Of a DNA stretch of 29,959 bases, positions 599 to 9,190 are shown piece after piece (within the stretch, counting starts at the first letter, position 1; each line of letters begins with the position of its first letter). The stretch is from positions 1-29,959 of the IMG/VR virus record IMGVR_UViG_3300036770_004178. The stretch is one strand, 5' to 3'. The notes under the pieces were generated by a model. The model worked only from the letters and a program-made list of their open reading frames with translations. It was not told the origin of the DNA and made no database searches. The position numbers and the translations under genes were made by a program. This stretch comes from a virus.

Positions 599-1144
599 AT
601 GAAGTCTGCCGTGGTCGTGTTGACCTGCCTGCTGTTGTGTTTCGCTGCTCAGTGCAGCGTGGTGGCTCAAGTGGATGAAAACCACGAGCCTGTTTCTGTT
701 TCGGTTCTGGAAGCGGCACCGGCTGTCGATGGTGACGGCGGCGAGGTGGACCGCGAGCGAGTGTTGGCGGTCAAGGTTGCTTTGCGGCAGCTGGCAGAGA
801 CCAAGCGTTTCCGGCTGATTGAAGCGATGAAGCTCCGCCGGGCCGCGAATGATGACGCTGTGTGTGAATATCTGGCCCTGAAATATCAGCAGGAGTTCGA
901 CGAAATCGAGGCTCAGGCTGCAGCGGGCGACCAGTTTCTGAAATGGATTGAATGGGCGATTAAGAACCAAGATTCAATCATCAAGTTTGTGACGACGCTG
1001 ATTGATTTGTTCAGCGGCAAGACTGCATTTGACAACCAGTTGTTGGTAGCCGGTCCAGTGTCTCGCGCGTGGCAGTTGCAGAAGGCGACCCGATATCGAG
1101 TGCGAAATTTTGAACAGCGGGTGATTGCTCGCGTTCGAGGTTAA
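599..1144 (+). CDS. Exported protein of unknown function
   Basis: The 181-residue product starts at ATG 599 with a GCGAGG ribosome site eight bases upstream. The first ~24 residues are a Sec-type signal peptide: a Lys, a long V/L/C/F core, and a probable cut near Val-Ala-Gln. The mature part is mostly helical and charged, with a hydrophobic amphipathic stretch around residues 116-140 rich in Trp, Ile and Phe. I do not recognise the family. It immediately precedes an exported serine protease, whose C-terminal tail has a similar W..F..hydrophobic pattern, suggesting the two act at the same membrane or envelope site. A spanin-like or protease-partner role is possible but unsupported. Confidence 0.6.
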   Translation: MKSAVVVLTCLLLCFAAQCSVVAQVDENHEPVSVSVLEAAPAVDGDGGEVDRERVLAVKVALRQLAETKRFRLIEAMKLRRAANDDAVCEYLALKYQQEFDEIEAQAAAGDQFLKWIEWAIKNQDSIIKFVTTLIDLFSGKTAFDNQLLVAGPVSRAWQLQKATRYRVRNFEQRVIARVRG

Positions 1145-1210
1145 GCGTTCGCCTGGTTGCCGGTCGGTCTTTTCAATTCACAAACCCGCTCGCTAGTGGA
1201 GCCGCAAACA

Positions 1211-2329
1211 ATGCCCTCGAAACGATTCGTCTCTGTTGTTCTCAGCTTCGCCCTGGTTGTTCTGTTTTCAGCTTCGGCTGACGCCCAGTTGTTCCGTAAG
1301 GGCTGGCGGGCCCCGGCGAGTAATTGCCCCGATGGCAGTTGCCCGCCGATGGTGATCAATCCAGCTCCCCCGGTCGTTCCGGTGGTGCCTGTGGTGCCTC
1401 TTGAGACCGAAGGCGAGACCGCTGAATCGACTTGGTTCAAGGTTTTGCGGGTGCCGACCGGTCACAGCCTGACCAAGGCCGACGAAACTGAGATTCGCAG
1501 TTGGGCCGGGCGGGCGGTTCGGATTCTCAACGGCAACTCGTGCGGCACTGGCAGTCTTTGCGGGCGCGACGATACGGGGATTTACATCCTGACCAATGCT
1601 CACGTCGCGAGCTCAAAGATTGGAAACGTGGTCCAGTGCGAGGCGTTGAAAGCGGACAAAAGCGGGACTGAGAAGTTTTCGGCCCGAGTGATTGAAGCCG
1701 CCTACAGTTCGCGGACCTCGACCGACTGGGCCCTGCTCAAGGCTGACAATAAGTTCATGAAAGGGCTGGAGCCGATCAAACTCTCGACCACCGACCCGGA
1801 TTCTAGCGAGCTGACCGGGACCTGGGGCTGTCCCCGCTGCGAAGTCCCGAGCGGCCAGCTGTGCAAGACGACCAGCCTTGGCAGCCTTTGGTACTGGCAA
1901 CCCAACTCGATTGGCGGCCAGAGCGGTTCGGCAGTCGTTCAGGATGGCAAGCAAAAGGGCCTGTTGACCTGGACGATTAACGGCAGCGGGGCTGGTCAGA
2001 AAACGGCAACGATCTGGAAGCAAAGCAAAGAGAAGAACACCGACGGCCCAGCTCGGGTGGATGGGCTGGAGTTCCCGAGTGCGACGGGTCAATGGTCTGG
2101 CGTTGAGCTGATTGAAGGCTACCACTGCGAAACGAGTTCGCTGAGCGATTACCCGATTTGGGATGTTGGTCCACCCAGCGACGGTGGTGGAAATGGCGGC
2201 GGGGACGGGGGCGGAACACAACCTCCACCGCCGGCAATGAGTGCCGCTGAAAAGGAACTGCGATCGAAGGTTGGCGACTGGGAGAAGTTTGTCCAGGCGG
2301 TGCTGGGTTTGTTCAAGTTGGTTAAGTAG
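1211..2329 (+). CDS. Exported trypsin-like serine protease
   Basis: The 372-residue product starts at ATG 1211, preceded by GGAG at nine bases; an in-frame ATG at 1157 would add a tail before the signal peptide and lacks a ribosome site. A signal peptide occupies residues 1-26 (cut after SADAQ-like sequence). A Pro/Val-rich linker follows, then an S1/trypsin-like domain from about residue 95 to 310. The triad is visible: His131 in TNAHV, Asp172 in STDWALLK and Ser238 in GGQSGSA. A Gly/Pro-rich linker (about 315-340) leads to a short C-terminal amphipathic helix. It probably cleaves proteins in the host envelope or outside the cell. Exported proteases are rare in tailed phages; a role in lysis, superinfection control or host-surface processing is inference. 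Confidence 0.85.
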   Translation: MPSKRFVSVVLSFALVVLFSASADAQLFRKGWRAPASNCPDGSCPPMVINPAPPVVPVVPVVPLETEGETAESTWFKVLRVPTGHSLTKADETEIRSWAGRAVRILNGNSCGTGSLCGRDDTGIYILTNAHVASSKIGNVVQCEALKADKSGTEKFSARVIEAAYSSRTSTDWALLKADNKFMKGLEPIKLSTTDPDSSELTGTWGCPRCEVPSGQLCKTTSLGSLWYWQPNSIGGQSGSAVVQDGKQKGLLTWTINGSGAGQKTATIWKQSKEKNTDGPARVDGLEFPSATGQWSGVELIEGYHCETSSLSDYPIWDVGPPSDGGGNGGGDGGGTQPPPPAMSAAEKELRSKVGDWEKFVQAVLGLFKLVK

Positions 2330-2387
2330 TTGGCGGTTTGGTTCGGTCGGTTCCTTCCTGGTTGATTTGATTTTCAAAGGGTGAAGC

Positions 2388-2732
2388 ATGCCAAAGCGTA
2401 TCAACGCTGATCCAGTCAACGTCACGGTGACGATTGCCAACAACGCCAACGAGAGCGAATTGATTGATTGCCGAAAGAATCAGCTGCTTGGCTTTTATGC
2501 CCCGGCGTCGATGACTGGTTCAACGTGGGGACTCAAGGGCAGCCACGACGGCACCAATTTTTTCAACGTGAATGACGAAGGGACCGCCTACAGCGGCAAG
2601 ACGCTGACTTCTAGTGAGCTGCATGCCATCAAGGCAAACGTGGCAGCCACTATTCAGTACGCAAAAATCACGACTGGATCAAACCAGTCGGGTGCCAAGA
2701 GTCTCGTTTGCGTTCTTCGGCCAATTGCCTAA
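2388..2732 (+). CDS. Small beta-rich phage protein, unknown
   Basis: The 114-residue product starts at ATG 2388 with GGGTGA upstream. It has no signal peptide or membrane segment. The middle contains a 'GSTWGLKGSHDGTNFFNV' pattern, with aromatic and Gly residues spaced as in small beta-sandwich proteins found beside phage virion genes. That resemblance is from memory of the pattern, not a search. It is followed closely by a zincin gene and then by receptor-binding genes, so a minor virion protein is the most likely role. Confidence 0.55.
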   Translation: MPKRINADPVNVTVTIANNANESELIDCRKNQLLGFYAPASMTGSTWGLKGSHDGTNFFNVNDEGTAYSGKTLTSSELHAIKANVAATIQYAKITTGSNQSGAKSLVCVLRPIA

Positions 2733-2749
2733 AGCGAAAGGGTGCCGCC

Positions 2750-3256
2750 ATGCGTGCTTTTTGTGGCTGCACGATTGTTCCGCTGGATGAAGACCAGCGG
2801 CTGGAAGTTGCTGCCAAGCCTCGCAAGTTCACATTTGCTTTGCCGTACGGCGGGCACCCGAACTATTCATGGTTCGGCATGGGCAACACCAAGACCGTGG
2901 CAGTCATTCGTGCCGCGTTTGCTGAGTTGTCGAAGCTGAGCGGGGCGAAGTTTGTCGAGACTGCGAGCACCAGCAAGGCGAATATCCGGGTTTACTTCCA
3001 GAACATCGCCAACGGTGGGCAGTATGAAGGTGGCGGGAAGATCAAGTTTTCCAACTCGCGCAAGGGCGTGACTCCGGCGATTGGCCGAATCTGGCTGATT
3101 CACGAGGTCCAGCACTATCTGGGGTATCGGGCGAATCCGCCCAGTGACAAGTTTTATCACAGCCGGGTGCCAAAAGAGATTTTTCATGCGTGGGGCGGTC
3201 CTGAGTTCGGCCCGCACTTTACGGCGTGGATGCGTGCCAAATACGGAGCGAAGTAG
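2750..3256 (+). CDS. Zincin-type metallopeptidase (HEXXH), matrixin-like
   Basis: The 168-residue product starts at ATG 2750; GGGTG precedes it, and an in-frame earlier ATG at 2708 lies inside the previous gene. Residues 118-122 are HEVQH, the zinc and catalytic site of zincins, followed by LGY as in the matrixin HExxHxxGxxH layout. The canonical third ligand position (128) is Ala, so Asp133 or His137 may serve instead. The N-terminal half (FTFAL ... WFGMGNTKTVAVIRAAF ... VYFQ) matches the strand-helix-strand lead-in of matrixin-like domains. There is no signal peptide, so it would be cytoplasmic, virion-borne or released on lysis. The stop codon abuts the next ATG. Activity is uncertain because of the altered ligand. 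Confidence 0.65.
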   Translation: MRAFCGCTIVPLDEDQRLEVAAKPRKFTFALPYGGHPNYSWFGMGNTKTVAVIRAAFAELSKLSGAKFVETASTSKANIRVYFQNIANGGQYEGGGKIKFSNSRKGVTPAIGRIWLIHEVQHYLGYRANPPSDKFYHSRVPKEIFHAWGGPEFGPHFTAWMRAKYGAK

Positions 3257-4189
3257 ATGGGCCTTTTGCTGCTGCTTGGTGACTCCGGCTTTCGCGGTGC
3301 CTTGGATGCACTCGGTACAGGCCTTGAATCGGCGTGGTCGGTCGGTCGTCGTTTGCGGACAGCTTACAGCCGGCTTAACCCAGTGATTAGAGTCCGCAGG
3401 TCGAGCGACAACGCGGAGAGCGACTTCGCTGGGCTTGGTACTCAGGGTCAGGTAGACACAGCAGCTGTCGCCGCATTCTGCGGTGCTGGCGATGGTTTCT
3501 TGACGACCATCTACGATCAAAGCGGCAACGGGCGAAATTTCACGCAAGCAACCACATCCGTGCAGCCTATCGTTTGCGAATCAGGCACAGCCGTGACGCT
3601 CGGCGGAAGGCTTGCGGCAAAGTTCGTGACAGCTACTTCCCATCGCATGACTGTTGCGACAAGCACAGCACTTTACAACTACCTGCACACGACAGGCGGA
3701 ACTATTGGGTTTGTGAACAAGACAAACGACACAGTGCCAAACAAATGGTTTATGTCAAATGCAATCAACAACGCCTATGCTGGTTTCCGCCTGATTGACT
3801 CAGGCACAGAAGACACATCTATGAACATTGCCAAAGTGGATGTTGCTGGCGTGTCAACGAACGGCGACAGCGTGGCGTTTGGGACATCAGTTGGTTCGAC
3901 AGCTAATAAGGTCGGAGTTTTCTTGCTGGACCCAGACAACGCTACCGCTTCAAGTCGTGGATTCTTTTACCGTAATGGAACCTCAGTTGGCAGTGCTAAC
4001 GCAAGCACCGGCACGCCATTTGTTGAAAACGCAGCCTATAACTTGCATCTCGGCTTGAACGCTTTTAGCACTGGCCCTTGGGATGGAAACGCCAGCGAAA
4101 TTGTTATCTGGTCGAACATTCTTAGCGATGCCCAGCGTGACGCTTACGAGGCAAGTGCAGGTGCTTTCTACGGAATCACGGTGGCCTAA
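3257..4189 (+). CDS. Tail fibre or receptor-binding protein with lectin-like domain
   Basis: The 310-residue product begins at ATG 3257, directly after the previous stop codon, with GGAGCG upstream. After a short N-terminal segment the sequence reads SRLNPVIRVRRSSDNAESDF and then a YDQSGNGRNFTQAT motif. That combination is typical of concanavalin-like domains related to the arabinofuranosidase B catalytic domain and is common in phage tail fibres. The rest alternates short Thr/Ser/Asn-rich strands. Carbohydrate binding, or weak hydrolysis, at the host surface is the likely role. It shares its DQSG.G.NF.QAT motif with the SGNH protein encoded at 4611. Base composition looks lower in GC than the flanking genes, suggesting module exchange. 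Confidence 0.7.
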   Translation: MGLLLLLGDSGFRGALDALGTGLESAWSVGRRLRTAYSRLNPVIRVRRSSDNAESDFAGLGTQGQVDTAAVAAFCGAGDGFLTTIYDQSGNGRNFTQATTSVQPIVCESGTAVTLGGRLAAKFVTATSHRMTVATSTALYNYLHTTGGTIGFVNKTNDTVPNKWFMSNAINNAYAGFRLIDSGTEDTSMNIAKVDVAGVSTNGDSVAFGTSVGSTANKVGVFLLDPDNATASSRGFFYRNGTSVGSANASTGTPFVENAAYNLHLGLNAFSTGPWDGNASEIVIWSNILSDAQRDAYEASAGAFYGITVA

Positions 4190-4610: not shown

Positions 4611-6296
4611 ATGGCAATTGACGACCCGACAGACATAACAAACTGCGTGTTGTGGCTAAAATCGGATACTGGCATCACCGAAGCCGATGCTGCTGGTCGT
4701 GTATCGGCTTGGGCTGACCAAAGCGGAGCAGGTAATAACTTTGCACAGGCGACGGCAACGGCCCAGCCTTACATTTATGACGACAGCGTTTTCGGCAAGC
4801 GGGTGACGTTCAACCCAGCTGGCACGCAGCCGCACTGGCTGGCGTCTTCGATTTCAGTATCCAGCCAGTCTTTTTCTATTTTTGCCGTGCATCGCCTGCG
4901 TGCAAATGGCTCTAACGTCCAGCCATTGTTCAATACCTCTACCAGTGCAGGCAGGGCAGCTGTGTTGGTTTTCAATAACATCCCATGTGTTTACAACGGA
5001 GGCGGCGGAGGTATTCGTTACAGCACCAATTTTGCCAGCAATATCCTAGACTTTACTGGATACTGCTCAGGCTCAGACGGGATCGATGTTTATTCTGGAC
5101 ACACAAAAACTAGTTTGTCTGCAATTACATCAGAGTCCACTACATACGGAAGCCTAGGGCGTTGGAATTCTGACACCGTAGCCCTGTTTCAGGGCGATTT
5201 TATTGAAGTATTTGCGTATTCAAAAAAACTGGACGCCAGTGAACAGGCCGACGTTTTGGATTATCTGCAAAAGAAAACAGGAGTCCTGCCGCGTGAAAAC
5301 AACATTGTCATGATTGGCGATTCAATCACCGCAGGAGTCGGCTCAATTGAGGGACGAAACCTTCAGTACTACTTGGAGCAATCATTGCCGCTCAATTGCA
5401 GGGTAAGAAACGCGGGGATTTCCGGTTACACATGGAACCAAATTGCGTCAAACGTTACAGCCGAAAGCGTTGTCAGCGGGCAGCGAAATATTGTCATCGC
5501 ATGGGCGGGGACTAACGACATCGCTGCTGGTGACTCCGCGGCAACCGCAGCAACTGACAAGGGAACGTGCCTGGCGTCGTGGACGGCACAAGGCTGGGAG
5601 CCGGTAACGGTTCACATGCTACCAAGAACCGGAGTTTTACAAGCCACGACAGACGCTTATAACACGTTGCTTTCTGCTGGCCCTGAAACCGTTGTTTCAT
5701 GGGCCGATATCCCGCAGTTATCAGATGGGTTTGCGGAATATTTTAGCGATGATGACATTCATCCAACTAGCCGAGGCTATCAAGTTGCGGCAAACGAAAT
5801 AGGGAGAGTAATTAACAAGCTGCTCGACCCTGAGGTTTTGCTGCCATCAGAGATTGCCTCTGCTGTCCGCACTGAGCTGGCGACTGAGCTGGCACGAATT
5901 GATGTTGCGGTTAGTACGCGGCAATCGGCTGGGCCAGTTGTGGGTGCCATGTCTACAACTGGAAGTTCAGGATCGCTCAGGCTTTACAATAATCGCACAT
6001 ACGGCACGCCAGCACATGCAGCAATCGAGTTCACTGTTTCGAAAAATTACTCCACTGCTACCAGTGTCGAGTTGGTATTGTTTCGACCAGGAGATCCGCT
6101 GGCTGTCATTCAAAGAATCAGCGGAACAGTTGATTCATCGACTCTTGTATCAGTCAGTGGAACAGTGTCACTTGGAACAGAATACCTTCAAGGAAAAAAC
6201 GCTTTCGAGTGCAAGTATTCCCTGAAAGCAAACTGGTCTGGTGAGCTGGAAACGATTGCCGATGGAAAGGCTTATATCTTCGATCAGCCGACTTAA
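4611..6296 (+). CDS. Lectin-like domain fused to SGNH/GDSL esterase, tail fibre
   Basis: The 561-residue protein has three parts. Residues 1-220 form a LamG/concanavalin-like domain with a WADQSGAGNNFAQAT motif. Residues 232-400 are an SGNH hydrolase: block I IGDSITAG (Ser238), block II with Gly272 in GYTW, block III GTND (Asn302), and block V DDIH (Asp381, His384), giving a complete catalytic set. A short helical hinge (residues about 408-435) leads to a C-terminal beta domain. SGNH enzymes commonly remove acetyl or other acyl groups from surface polysaccharides, so this is a plausible depolymerase or de-esterifying tail fibre. ATG 4611 follows the previous stop by 14 bases. Composition is more AT-rich than the head genes. 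Confidence 0.8.
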   Translation: MAIDDPTDITNCVLWLKSDTGITEADAAGRVSAWADQSGAGNNFAQATATAQPYIYDDSVFGKRVTFNPAGTQPHWLASSISVSSQSFSIFAVHRLRANGSNVQPLFNTSTSAGRAAVLVFNNIPCVYNGGGGGIRYSTNFASNILDFTGYCSGSDGIDVYSGHTKTSLSAITSESTTYGSLGRWNSDTVALFQGDFIEVFAYSKKLDASEQADVLDYLQKKTGVLPRENNIVMIGDSITAGVGSIEGRNLQYYLEQSLPLNCRVRNAGISGYTWNQIASNVTAESVVSGQRNIVIAWAGTNDIAAGDSAATAATDKGTCLASWTAQGWEPVTVHMLPRTGVLQATTDAYNTLLSAGPETVVSWADIPQLSDGFAEYFSDDDIHPTSRGYQVAANEIGRVINKLLDPEVLLPSEIASAVRTELATELARIDVAVSTRQSAGPVVGAMSTTGSSGSLRLYNNRTYGTPAHAAIEFTVSKNYSTATSVELVLFRPGDPLAVIQRISGTVDSSTLVSVSGTVSLGTEYLQGKNAFECKYSLKANWSGELETIADGKAYIFDQPT

Positions 6297-6299
6297 TGA

Positions 6300-8411
6300 A
6301 TGACAAACGAAGAAGAATTTGAAGACGATGATGAGGGCGGCGGCGGGTTCAATGAACGCGACTGGGACGCCCAGCGAAAGCGAGCCGCACGCAGCCAAGC
6401 GGCCGCGATCAAGATTCCCAAATGCGTTGACCCGGCGAGGCGAGCTCGCTGCCTCGAAAGCCCGGAGCTGTTTCTCAAGACCTACTTTCCCGAGCGGTTC
6501 TACTTGCCGTTCTCGGACAACCACAAGGAAATGATTCACGCGATCGACGTGCGGTCGGTCAGTGGTGGCGATCAAGCCGTGGCGGCCCCGCGTGGTGAGG
6601 GCAAGACCGAAATCACCACGGGGATGATTATCTATCTGATTTTGAAGGAACGAACGAAGTTTCCGCTGATCGTCGCGGCGACGGGTGTCCATGCCGAGCG
6701 AATCTACTCGGACATTAAGAGCCAGTTCGAGCGAAACGAACTACTCTACGCCGACTTCCCCGAGGTTTGTGCCCCGGTGGTCTGTCTCGAAGGGGCACCG
6801 CAGCGGGCGGCCCGGCAGCATGTAGACGGCAAACTGACCCGAATCGAGTGGAAACAGAAGCACTGCTATTTTCCGACCGTCCCTGGGAGCAAGTACGGCG
6901 GGGTTTGCCTGGCGTTTGCGGGGCTCGACTCGGCAATCCGCGGTCTGAAAATCCACGGCACCCGGCCCGACTTCGCTCTGATTGACGACCCGGAAACGAA
7001 AGAATCGGCAGACAGTGATTTGCAGATTCGGATCCGGTCGGAACTGATCGACCGCGACATTGCCGGGCTGGCCGGGCCCGGGAAGACGCTGACTCGCGTC
7101 ATGCTCTGCACTGTGCAGAATCGCAAGTGCGTTTCATTCCAGTTTACCGACCCAGTTTTGAAGCCTTCGTGGAACGGCAAGCGATACAGGTGGATTGAAA
7201 GCTGGCCGGAAAACGAGCAGTTTTGGACCGACTACATGGACCAACGGCAAGCCGACATGCGTGGCGGCGACCCGTTTGGGCAGGTGGCCACCCAGATGTA
7301 CCTGGACAACCGCGAATCAGCCGAGCTGGGGGCGAAGGTCTCGAACGAGTTCCGGTACTGCTCAGACAAGCTGGCCGGCGGGCTGCAGGTCGAATACTCG
7401 GCACTCCAAGCCGCGATGAACAAGATCGCCGACAACGGGATCGAGGCGTTTCTCAGCGAGTACCAGAACGACCCGAAGAAGGAAGAGGGGCCGGAAACGA
7501 GGGGACTCACGCCCGACCTGGTTGCCTCGCGAATCAGTTCTTACCAGCAGGGCGAGGTTCCCGAGCACTCGGAGCGGCTAACGGCTTTCCTCGATCTTGG
7601 CAAGTACGGCTGCCACTGGGCGGTGACTTCGTGGCGGGGAAATGCGATAGGAAATGTCGTGGATTATGGGTATATCGAAATGCCGGAAATTCGGCATGGA
7701 AGCAGCGAGCAGGCGATAGAATTAGCCCTGTTGTCGAAAATGTCGCTGTTTCGCGAACAGCTGCTGGCTGAATACCGGCCGGATCTGGTCATGATCGACT
7801 CGGGTCACTTCACCAAAACAACTTATCAGTTCGTTCGCGAGGTGGGCGGGATCCCTTTCGTGGTCAGCAAGGGCTGGGGCGGTGACTCGCATTATCGCAC
7901 ACCCAAGCCGACGGAAGAGGTCTACGTCGGCGACAACTGGAATATCAGTTTGCAGAAGACTGAGGGTGTTTGGCTGTACAACTTCAACGCGGACTTTTGG
8001 AAAGGATGGGTCCACGATCGGTTTTTGACGAAGACTTTCGACAATTCGCAAGTAATGCAGGACGGCACGCTCTCGCTGTTCAATTGTGGAGACGACAAGA
8101 CTAATCGCCAGCGGCATCATTCATTTTCACAGCATATCTGTGCGGAAGAATTCCGCGAGACTTTCAAGCCCGACAAGGGTATCACCCGCAAGTGGGTGGC
8201 TGTGAAAAAGAACAATCACTGGTTCGACTGCGTGGTCGGATGCTCGGTGGCGGCGAATATTCTTGGCATCAACCTCATGCGGCAGCGGAACGATGAACTA
8301 ATGGCCAAGGCAGTGGCGACGCAGCGGGTGGCGAACACTCAACGCGACGTGGAAGCTGGGAGGTATTTCCAAAATCAACACGGTCAATCGTTCTTTTTGA
8401 CGGAGCGTTAA
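6300..8411 (+). CDS. terL: Terminase large subunit
   Basis: The 703-residue product is the phage DNA-packaging motor. The ATPase domain has a Walker A motif APRGEGKT at residues 96-103 and a probable Walker B FALIDDPE at 225-232 with catalytic acid(s). The C-terminal nuclease half begins near FLDLGKYG (an RNase H-like first Asp) and continues with VMIDSGHF. The N-terminus is acidic and Gly-rich. The size exceeds the usual 450-650 residues but fits lambda gpA-like or related large terminases. ATG 6300 lies three bases after the previous stop. The portal gene follows 776 bases downstream. The small terminase subunit is not obvious in the window; the protein encoded at 8414 is one weak candidate. 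Confidence 0.92.
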   Translation: MTNEEEFEDDDEGGGGFNERDWDAQRKRAARSQAAAIKIPKCVDPARRARCLESPELFLKTYFPERFYLPFSDNHKEMIHAIDVRSVSGGDQAVAAPRGEGKTEITTGMIIYLILKERTKFPLIVAATGVHAERIYSDIKSQFERNELLYADFPEVCAPVVCLEGAPQRAARQHVDGKLTRIEWKQKHCYFPTVPGSKYGGVCLAFAGLDSAIRGLKIHGTRPDFALIDDPETKESADSDLQIRIRSELIDRDIAGLAGPGKTLTRVMLCTVQNRKCVSFQFTDPVLKPSWNGKRYRWIESWPENEQFWTDYMDQRQADMRGGDPFGQVATQMYLDNRESAELGAKVSNEFRYCSDKLAGGLQVEYSALQAAMNKIADNGIEAFLSEYQNDPKKEEGPETRGLTPDLVASRISSYQQGEVPEHSERLTAFLDLGKYGCHWAVTSWRGNAIGNVVDYGYIEMPEIRHGSSEQAIELALLSKMSLFREQLLAEYRPDLVMIDSGHFTKTTYQFVREVGGIPFVVSKGWGGDSHYRTPKPTEEVYVGDNWNISLQKTEGVWLYNFNADFWKGWVHDRFLTKTFDNSQVMQDGTLSLFNCGDDKTNRQRHHSFSQHICAEEFRETFKPDKGITRKWVAVKKNNHWFDCVVGCSVAANILGINLMRQRNDELMAKAVATQRVANTQRDVEAGRYFQNQHGQSFFLTER

Positions 8412-8914: not shown

Positions 8915-9190
8915 ATGCCAGCGTACACGCCGACCGATATCATCGACAATTTCAACGACTACGCCGATTACGAAGAACTCGGCAGCGTAGCTCGGGCGAA
9001 GTCGTTCATTACCTGGGCGATGCGGATGCTCGCTCTGCCCGAGGAAACCCGCCGCAATTCCAACGCGCTCGTTTACGACAAAGCCGTGATCGAGTCGCAG
9101 CTGAACGCGGCCCGTAATTTTGTGCTGGCCAATGAGCAATCCAGCGGCTCCAGCGTCGCATTCTTTTCGGTGGAGAACTTCCGCCGATGA
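8915..9190 (+). CDS. Small head protein in gpW position
   Basis: The 91-residue product begins at ATG 8915, with a weak or hidden ribosome site. The sequence is helical and charged, opening with YTPTDIIDNFNDYADYEELG and ending with a short beta-like tail. In lambda the gene between terminase and portal is the head-completion protein gpW, of similar size (68 residues); homology cannot be judged by eye. The stop overlaps the portal start (ATGA), so the two are translationally coupled. A head-assembly role is inferred from position. Confidence 0.55.
   Translation: MPAYTPTDIIDNFNDYADYEELGSVARAKSFITWAMRMLALPEETRRNSNALVYDKAVIESQLNAARNFVLANEQSSGSSVAFFSVENFRR

Follow-up and report, generated by a model that had tools for sequence, protein, structure and literature searches.

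Holin-endolysin-spanin cassettes, chymotrypsin/HtrA-like S1 serine proteases (e.g., DegS, V8, and Spl), metzincins (M10, astacin M12A, and archaemetzincin M54), and papain-family C1 proteases are the described systems closest to a set of late genes found in an uncultured tailed-phage group. Phage lysis is taken to require a peptidoglycan hydrolase; a phage group that carries exported S1, papain-like C1, and metzincin proteases upstream of fibers and terminase, and in which no tested hydrolase family was found, makes a new route of cell exit, or of its control, directly testable. The same cassette supplies marker genes for little-known phages, possibly including those of Planctomycetes and neighboring phyla. 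In a literature search that covered papers available without subscription, neither protease-based lysis nor such a cassette was found to be described.

The DNA analyzed here (the window) is the entire IMG/VR record G000, with a length of 29,959 bases, and represents a tailed phage with genes for fibers, the large terminase subunit (TerL), portal, head protease, major capsid protein, tail proteins, and exonuclease, as well as an integrase gene on the minus strand. The record comes with no completeness estimate and is possibly incomplete; a search for terminal repeats found none in it, and lysis genes may thus lie beyond its ends. Like holin-endolysin-spanin cassettes, the genes of interest lie upstream of the terminase and combine an exported accessory protein with cytosolic hydrolases and, in relatives, with small membrane proteins, but the hydrolases here are proteases, no peptidoglycan hydrolase was found, and the window has no recognized holin or spanin. 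The serine protease (SP) resembles chymotrypsin/HtrA-like S1 enzymes in the H-D-S order of its triad, in above-cut-off matches to Trypsin and Trypsin_2, and, tentatively, in the fold matches of a low-confidence model; it differs in having GGQSG in place of GDSGG, Pro- and Gly-rich linkers, and no PDZ domain that we could find, in being phage-encoded, and in lying, in a second genome backbone, always beside a gene for another exported protein (exp1). The metalloprotease (zincin) shares with metzincins the HExxHxxG helix and a conserved downstream His, and its relatives additionally share the C-V-M turn and C-x2-C, with weak M10, M12A, and M54 matches; by contrast, the zincin of the window has a longer spacing to the third His and no Met-turn, and all matches fall below cut-off. 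Finally, the C1 proteases, encountered in relatives only, carry the papain-family pattern QGSC..GGHS..NSWG but differ from this family by their place in phage late clusters. These data are best read as placing exp1, SP, and zincin in a conserved proteolysis cassette among the late genes of a group of uncultured tailed phages.

exp1 and SP, a linked and selectively maintained gene pair

SP (1211-2329, plus strand) encodes an exported S1 serine protease with a putative chymotrypsin fold. Taking the ATG at 1211 as residue 1, it has 372 aa, whereas the mechanical open reading frame begins at 1157; it matches Pfam Trypsin (4e-7, 30.5 bits, cut-off 20.6) and Trypsin_2 (1.3e-6, 29.6 bits, cut-off 27.6). 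The triad H131/D172/S238, with GGQSGS at S238, is invariant in seven homologues, two of which are just 33-44% identical to SP; judged by this triad, SP is a catalytically intact S1 protease with predicted activity. Its layout comprises a signal peptide (residues ~1-25, ending ADA|Q), a proline-rich N-terminal linker, a glycine-rich linker, and a C-terminal helix (~345-371). The exported trypsin-like protease of the original prediction is thus confirmed by Pfam scores, alignments, and a signal peptide that, like that of exp1, was judged by eye with five aligned homologues. AlphaFold confidence was low for both SP and zincin (pLDDT ~41-43), so that fold matches are mere hints; for the SP model (pLDDT 40.8), the top Foldseek match was DegS (5e-4, with a low TM-score), and V8 and Spl-type proteases were also among the best matches.

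The adjacent exp1 gene (599-1144, plus strand) encodes the 181-aa partner of SP, and its open reading frame and signal peptide (~1-23, with an n-h-c pattern and, at VVA|Q, an A-x-A|Q end, both as in SP) bear out the existence of a second exported protein. The middle of exp1 is conserved and KLR-rich, and is accompanied by a hydrophobic/amphipathic C-terminal segment (~113-139). Both exported proteins had been described as sharing W-rich amphipathic C-termini, and this description holds in part: the tails of exp1 and SP are both hydrophobic, with moderate amphipathicity (moments of 0.38-0.58 over 18 residues; p 0.02-0.19 against shuffled sequences), but the tryptophans of the exp1 tail are replaced by F in relatives and hence not conserved, and evidence for a common motif was weak, with no homology between the tails shown.

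A scan of viral contigs identified SP in six further contigs at 60-63% identity, with exp1 immediately upstream in all six; a repeat scan with alignment added a seventh contig, and exp1 as query retrieved the same seven. These contigs represent the second, unrelated backbone, for which SP identity is put at 61-65%, whose portal and capsid differ from those of the window, and whose TerL is 25-29% identical; here, exp1 and SP have connector-type genes on one side and a gp10-like gene on the other (roles read by eye). This backbone also carries, between its terminase and portal genes but on the other strand, a gene for an apparently exported protein with an FGE-sulfatase domain (L046:1930-2784). 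For SP, dN/dS was ~0.1-0.2 where dS was unsaturated, and dN was far below dS for exp1, SP, and zincin alike.

Searches outside of viral contigs were negative. Among 392 Planctomycetota genomes, the exp1-SP pair was not found, SP gave just weak HtrA-type matches, and no zincin relatives were found. A scan of genome contigs with an SP profile (two short patterns) found none, a tblastn comparison of SP, zincin, and two relatives' proteases with INPHARED gave no match, and a sequence search of solved structures returned nothing useful. As the pair was not found in these Planctomycetota genomes, it does not represent a common host island; with its flanking genes also being phage genes, we rejected a host island as the source of the protease.

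The neighboring metalloprotease and fiber genes

The third gene of the original prediction, zincin (2750-3256, plus strand), is indeed present and encodes a cytosolic metzincin-like metalloprotease of 168 aa without a signal peptide; the ATG was taken at 2750, with the mechanical open reading frame beginning at 2708. Its HEVQH at residues 118-122 supplies the ligands H118 and H122, with E119. H137 is probably the third zinc ligand, since it is invariant in the family and lines up, in relatives, with the histidine of KWGHC..CVM. The motif HExxHxxGxxH/D does not apply to the window zincin (HEVQHYLGYRA, with A or Y at position 11), in which H137 falls 12 residues past the G, giving the spacing HExxHxxG-x11-H. 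A Met-turn is absent from this protein, and CVM or CIM is present in the relatives from G416 and G423 (HEVGH..WGHC..CVM..CxRC). Profile matches were below threshold for both Matrixin (M10; 0.0017, 18.6 bits versus a cut-off of 24) and, for a relative, Astacin (18.9 bits versus a cut-off of 22.5), and the low-confidence zincin model gave weak MMP-like fold matches.

Between SP and zincin lies h3 (2388-2732, plus strand), which encodes a small protein of 114 aa with 32-34% identity by blastp to proteins of G423 and G418 and with similar proteins, by position and by eye, in L062 and L008. Downstream, zincin is flanked by genes for a LamG-like protein, a probable fiber or adhesin (3257-4189, plus strand; virion structural phrog_10356, 3.8e-17), and for a probable fiber with LamG-like and GDSL lipase/esterase domains (4611-6296, plus strand; Pfam/PHROG matches). 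The combination of a GDSL esterase and a LamG-like domain in one probable fiber suggests removal of surface acyl groups. In other phages, h3 homologues adjoin zincin or fiber genes, and zincin itself, present in other backbones at 58-68% identity, adjoins h3-like, one-helix coiled-coil, and long fiber-like proteins. The original prediction is corrected in that exp1 and SP form one pair, and zincin lies in a neighboring segment that can travel without it. The zincin-bearing G007, which has another backbone, has consecutive genes (L055:8037-10441) for a small hydrophobic protein, a subtilase in which no signal peptide is evident, and two proteins that are exported.

This neighborhood could also reflect processing of virions or fibers, with zincin and C1 acting in the cytosol on LamG/GDSL fibers or riding in the virion, and with SP being unrelated. 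That zincin, h3, and fiber genes are neighbors in several backbones, and that neither zincin nor C1 has a signal peptide, agrees with this explanation, which nevertheless leaves the Sec export and the pairing of exp1 and SP unaccounted for; we consider it distinctly unlikely. Enlistment of the secreted enzymes as auxiliary peptidases, by which the phage would boost extracellular protein breakdown for nutrients, is very improbable: secreted S1 enzymes do occur with carbohydrate-binding and esterase proteins nearby, but the strict pairing with exp1, the late-cluster position, and the co-occurrence with cytosolic proteases all speak against it.

Protease genes upstream of fibers and terminase in related phages

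TerL (6300-8411, plus strand) served as the anchor for finding relatives; the terminase search yielded 80 loci, and PF13365 matched 12 among 50 records, where Pfam-only S1 counts are lower bounds because PF13365 missed an SP homologue (in G409) that blastp found. In relatives with the same terminase, the region upstream of fibers and terminase is repeatedly occupied by exported S1 proteases, papain-like C1 proteases, and metzincins, and small membrane proteins with one or two helices are frequent neighbors. In 14 relatives, ~6 kb or more of the sequence preceding TerL is covered (G409 and G423 being counted across contig ends); 12 of these carry S1 and/or C1 proteases (S1 in 7, C1 in 10) and 2 carry neither. 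The G415-G423 group is close-knit, and independent S1 cases number about five, namely the window, the second backbone, G409, G433, and the G415-G423 group.

The composition of these cassettes varies. In G415, G416, G418, G419, and G423, the cassette starts with an exported trypsin that differs from SP, a small hydrophobic-tailed protein, and an exported 257-aa protein, followed by a C1 protease of the papain-like type, a one-helix protein of 64 aa, homologues of h3 and zincin (the latter at 45-46% identity, with none listed for G418), fibers, and TerL. SP homologues are located upstream of fibers and terminase in two relatives. That of G433 (33%, 4e-40) is accompanied by a canonical matrixin (HEIGHCFGWVH) as well as by a small protein that is exported; that of G409 (44%, 1e-49) has no clear signal peptide in the open reading frame as called, and its segment also encodes a small exported protein and a membrane protein with two helices. 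No significant homology links exp1 to the small hydrophobic-tailed protein of G409 (p 0.11) or to that of the G415-G423 group (p 0.43), although these two are similar to one another (p 3e-4). C1-like proteins without S1 were found in G413, G426, G435, G439, and G442, the evidence in G439 and G442 being motif plus blastp, or a profile made from them. C1 proteases, identified by the motif named above, exceed the Pfam cut-off in six records and are absent from the window. The two-helix membrane proteins of the G409 and G442 segments are homologous (~5e-8), and the 67-aa protein of G442 has a weak PHROG holin match (E 0.0017). The placement of proteases beside late genes thus proved to be a real phage feature, as judged by the conserved pair and by recurrence upstream of fibers and terminase.

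Several further genes were observed in relatives. In G413, G426, and G439, the neighbor of the papain-like protease is a thioredoxin-like protein with a hydrophobic N-terminus, with CxxC in two of the three cases, as if supplying disulfide chemistry (by eye; L172:17297-17626, L174:18697-19128, and L127:1689-2699). Near the protease cassette of G409, an apparently exported protein (L168:6122-6559) fits a CAP (cysteine-rich secretory) match of 1.7e-11 in its ORF set. Among capsid relatives, L029:4680-5998 encodes a canonical matrixin (HEIGHWFGFGH), with a glycosyltransferase, between terminase and portal, and two MAG contigs encode other exported trypsin-like proteases, one with a C-terminal membrane segment (G016, L063:5081-6604) and one with collagen-like repeats (G017, L065:10203-11363).

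The genomic contexts of exp1 and SP are also relevant to the possibility that the pair is a moron rather than a lysis module. Export in the course of infection or in lysogeny would then serve to cleave proteins of the surface or the periplasm (receptors or proteins of competing phages), providing superinfection exclusion or a fitness gain. Both proteins have signal peptides, the second backbone has the pair inserted as two genes amid connector genes, as is typical of morons, the window phage has an integrase, and the exported trypsins of G016 and G017 differ in architecture. We nevertheless regard this role as somewhat unlikely, given that exp1 and SP share strand and position with the late cluster, that co-location with cytosolic C1 proteases and metzincins is repeatedly seen, enzymes which are unable to act outside the cell without release, and that no endolysins were recognized.

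Lysis genes, host envelope, and a possible role in egress

Pfam and PHROG scans for lysis families across the 29,959 bases agree with the original prediction that the window has no recognizable endolysin or holin; the one match, of a head-region protein (8915-9190) to holin phrog_7023 (E 0.31), is at chance level, and this protein has no membrane helix. PHROG matches and open reading frames with hydrophobic segments likewise revealed no holin-like membrane protein in the window. With positive controls, Amidase_2, Phage_lysozyme, and SLT were not found in 18 relatives' records and M23 was not found in 22, and Pfam identified no peptidoglycan hydrolase among 96 unassigned open reading frames of the near-complete G409, G433, G423, G426, and G435, a set that excluded some replication and tape-measure frames. 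For G007 and the second backbone, the scan results covered the best 25 of 42 and the best 25 of 57 families, respectively, such that weaker hydrolase matches are possible there. Co-occurrence of the proteases with phages in which no tested hydrolase domain was found, which the original prediction had proposed as a check, was thus observed. That an ordinary endolysin-holin pair escaped detection, either by lying beyond the 29,959 bases of the record or through divergence, and that the proteases are incidental, is the least probable of the explanations considered; while the record has neither terminal repeats nor a completeness estimate and ~87% of PHROGs are without known function, near-complete relatives of 35-42 kb likewise yield no hydrolase family.

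The host is only loosely placed, and not firmly identified, by capsid relatives in MAG contigs labeled Planctomycetaceae, Pirellulales, Acidobacteria, unclassified bacterium, and Microbacteriaceae; the last label may be a binning error. The premise that a protein-rich envelope of Planctomycetes would let proteases stand in for peptidoglycan hydrolases conflicts with the finding that these bacteria have lysozyme-sensitive peptidoglycan sacculi (PMC4432640). In such a host, a protease alone would have to cut cross-linking or anchoring proteins, or to work with an unrecognized hydrolase.

We tentatively favor a late envelope-directed proteolysis cassette that most likely serves lysis or egress, as suggested by its position, by export, by nearby membrane proteins in relatives, and by the lack of recognized endolysins. 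In the late phase, exp1 and SP would be exported to the periplasm by their Sec-type signal peptides, where the hydrophobic/amphipathic C-terminus of exp1 may associate with the membrane and SP may cut envelope proteins or exp1 itself. Zincin, and C1 in relatives, could reach the envelope once the inner membrane has been opened by exp1 or by a membrane protein, and the weakened envelope would lead to lysis and progeny release, in place of or alongside an unrecognized peptidoglycan hydrolase. The constant adjacency of exp1 and SP in the second backbone, the SP homologues in G409 and G433, the occupation of the equivalent place by other S1 and C1 proteases in terminase relatives, the two-helix membrane proteins of G409 and G442, and export combined with purifying selection all favor a role in lysis. 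By contrast, the pair lies among head-tail connector genes in the second backbone, an unusual position for lysis genes, a recognizable membrane holin is missing from the window, and a host with peptidoglycan still demands a hydrolase, perhaps one that is too divergent or outside of the record. An exported protease is also not universal, since several relatives have C1 without S1 and 2 of 14 have neither, and exported proteases equally fit superinfection control or lysogenic conversion in a phage with an integrase. The stronger proposition that this lineage lyses its host mainly by envelope proteolysis, with exported SP, a membrane-active exp1, metzincin, and, in relatives, C1 replacing endolysins and unrelated protease classes having filled the slot, appears doubtful.

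Directly upstream of exp1, a small RpoA-CTD-like protein with a helix-hairpin-helix is encoded at 130-501 on the plus strand, as judged from its translation and by-eye similarity, with no family match in the window. Its counterpart in G433 (L160:14625-14966) lies directly upstream of the SP homologue, and the ORF set that contains this counterpart gave one RNA_pol_A_CTD match (6.6e-4); both proteins are possible transcription regulators outside of the enzyme set. Finally, the presence of QueC together with GTP cyclohydrolase I in the G409/G433 ORF set (L169:15251-18776) suggests that one of these phages modifies its DNA with 7-deazaguanine.
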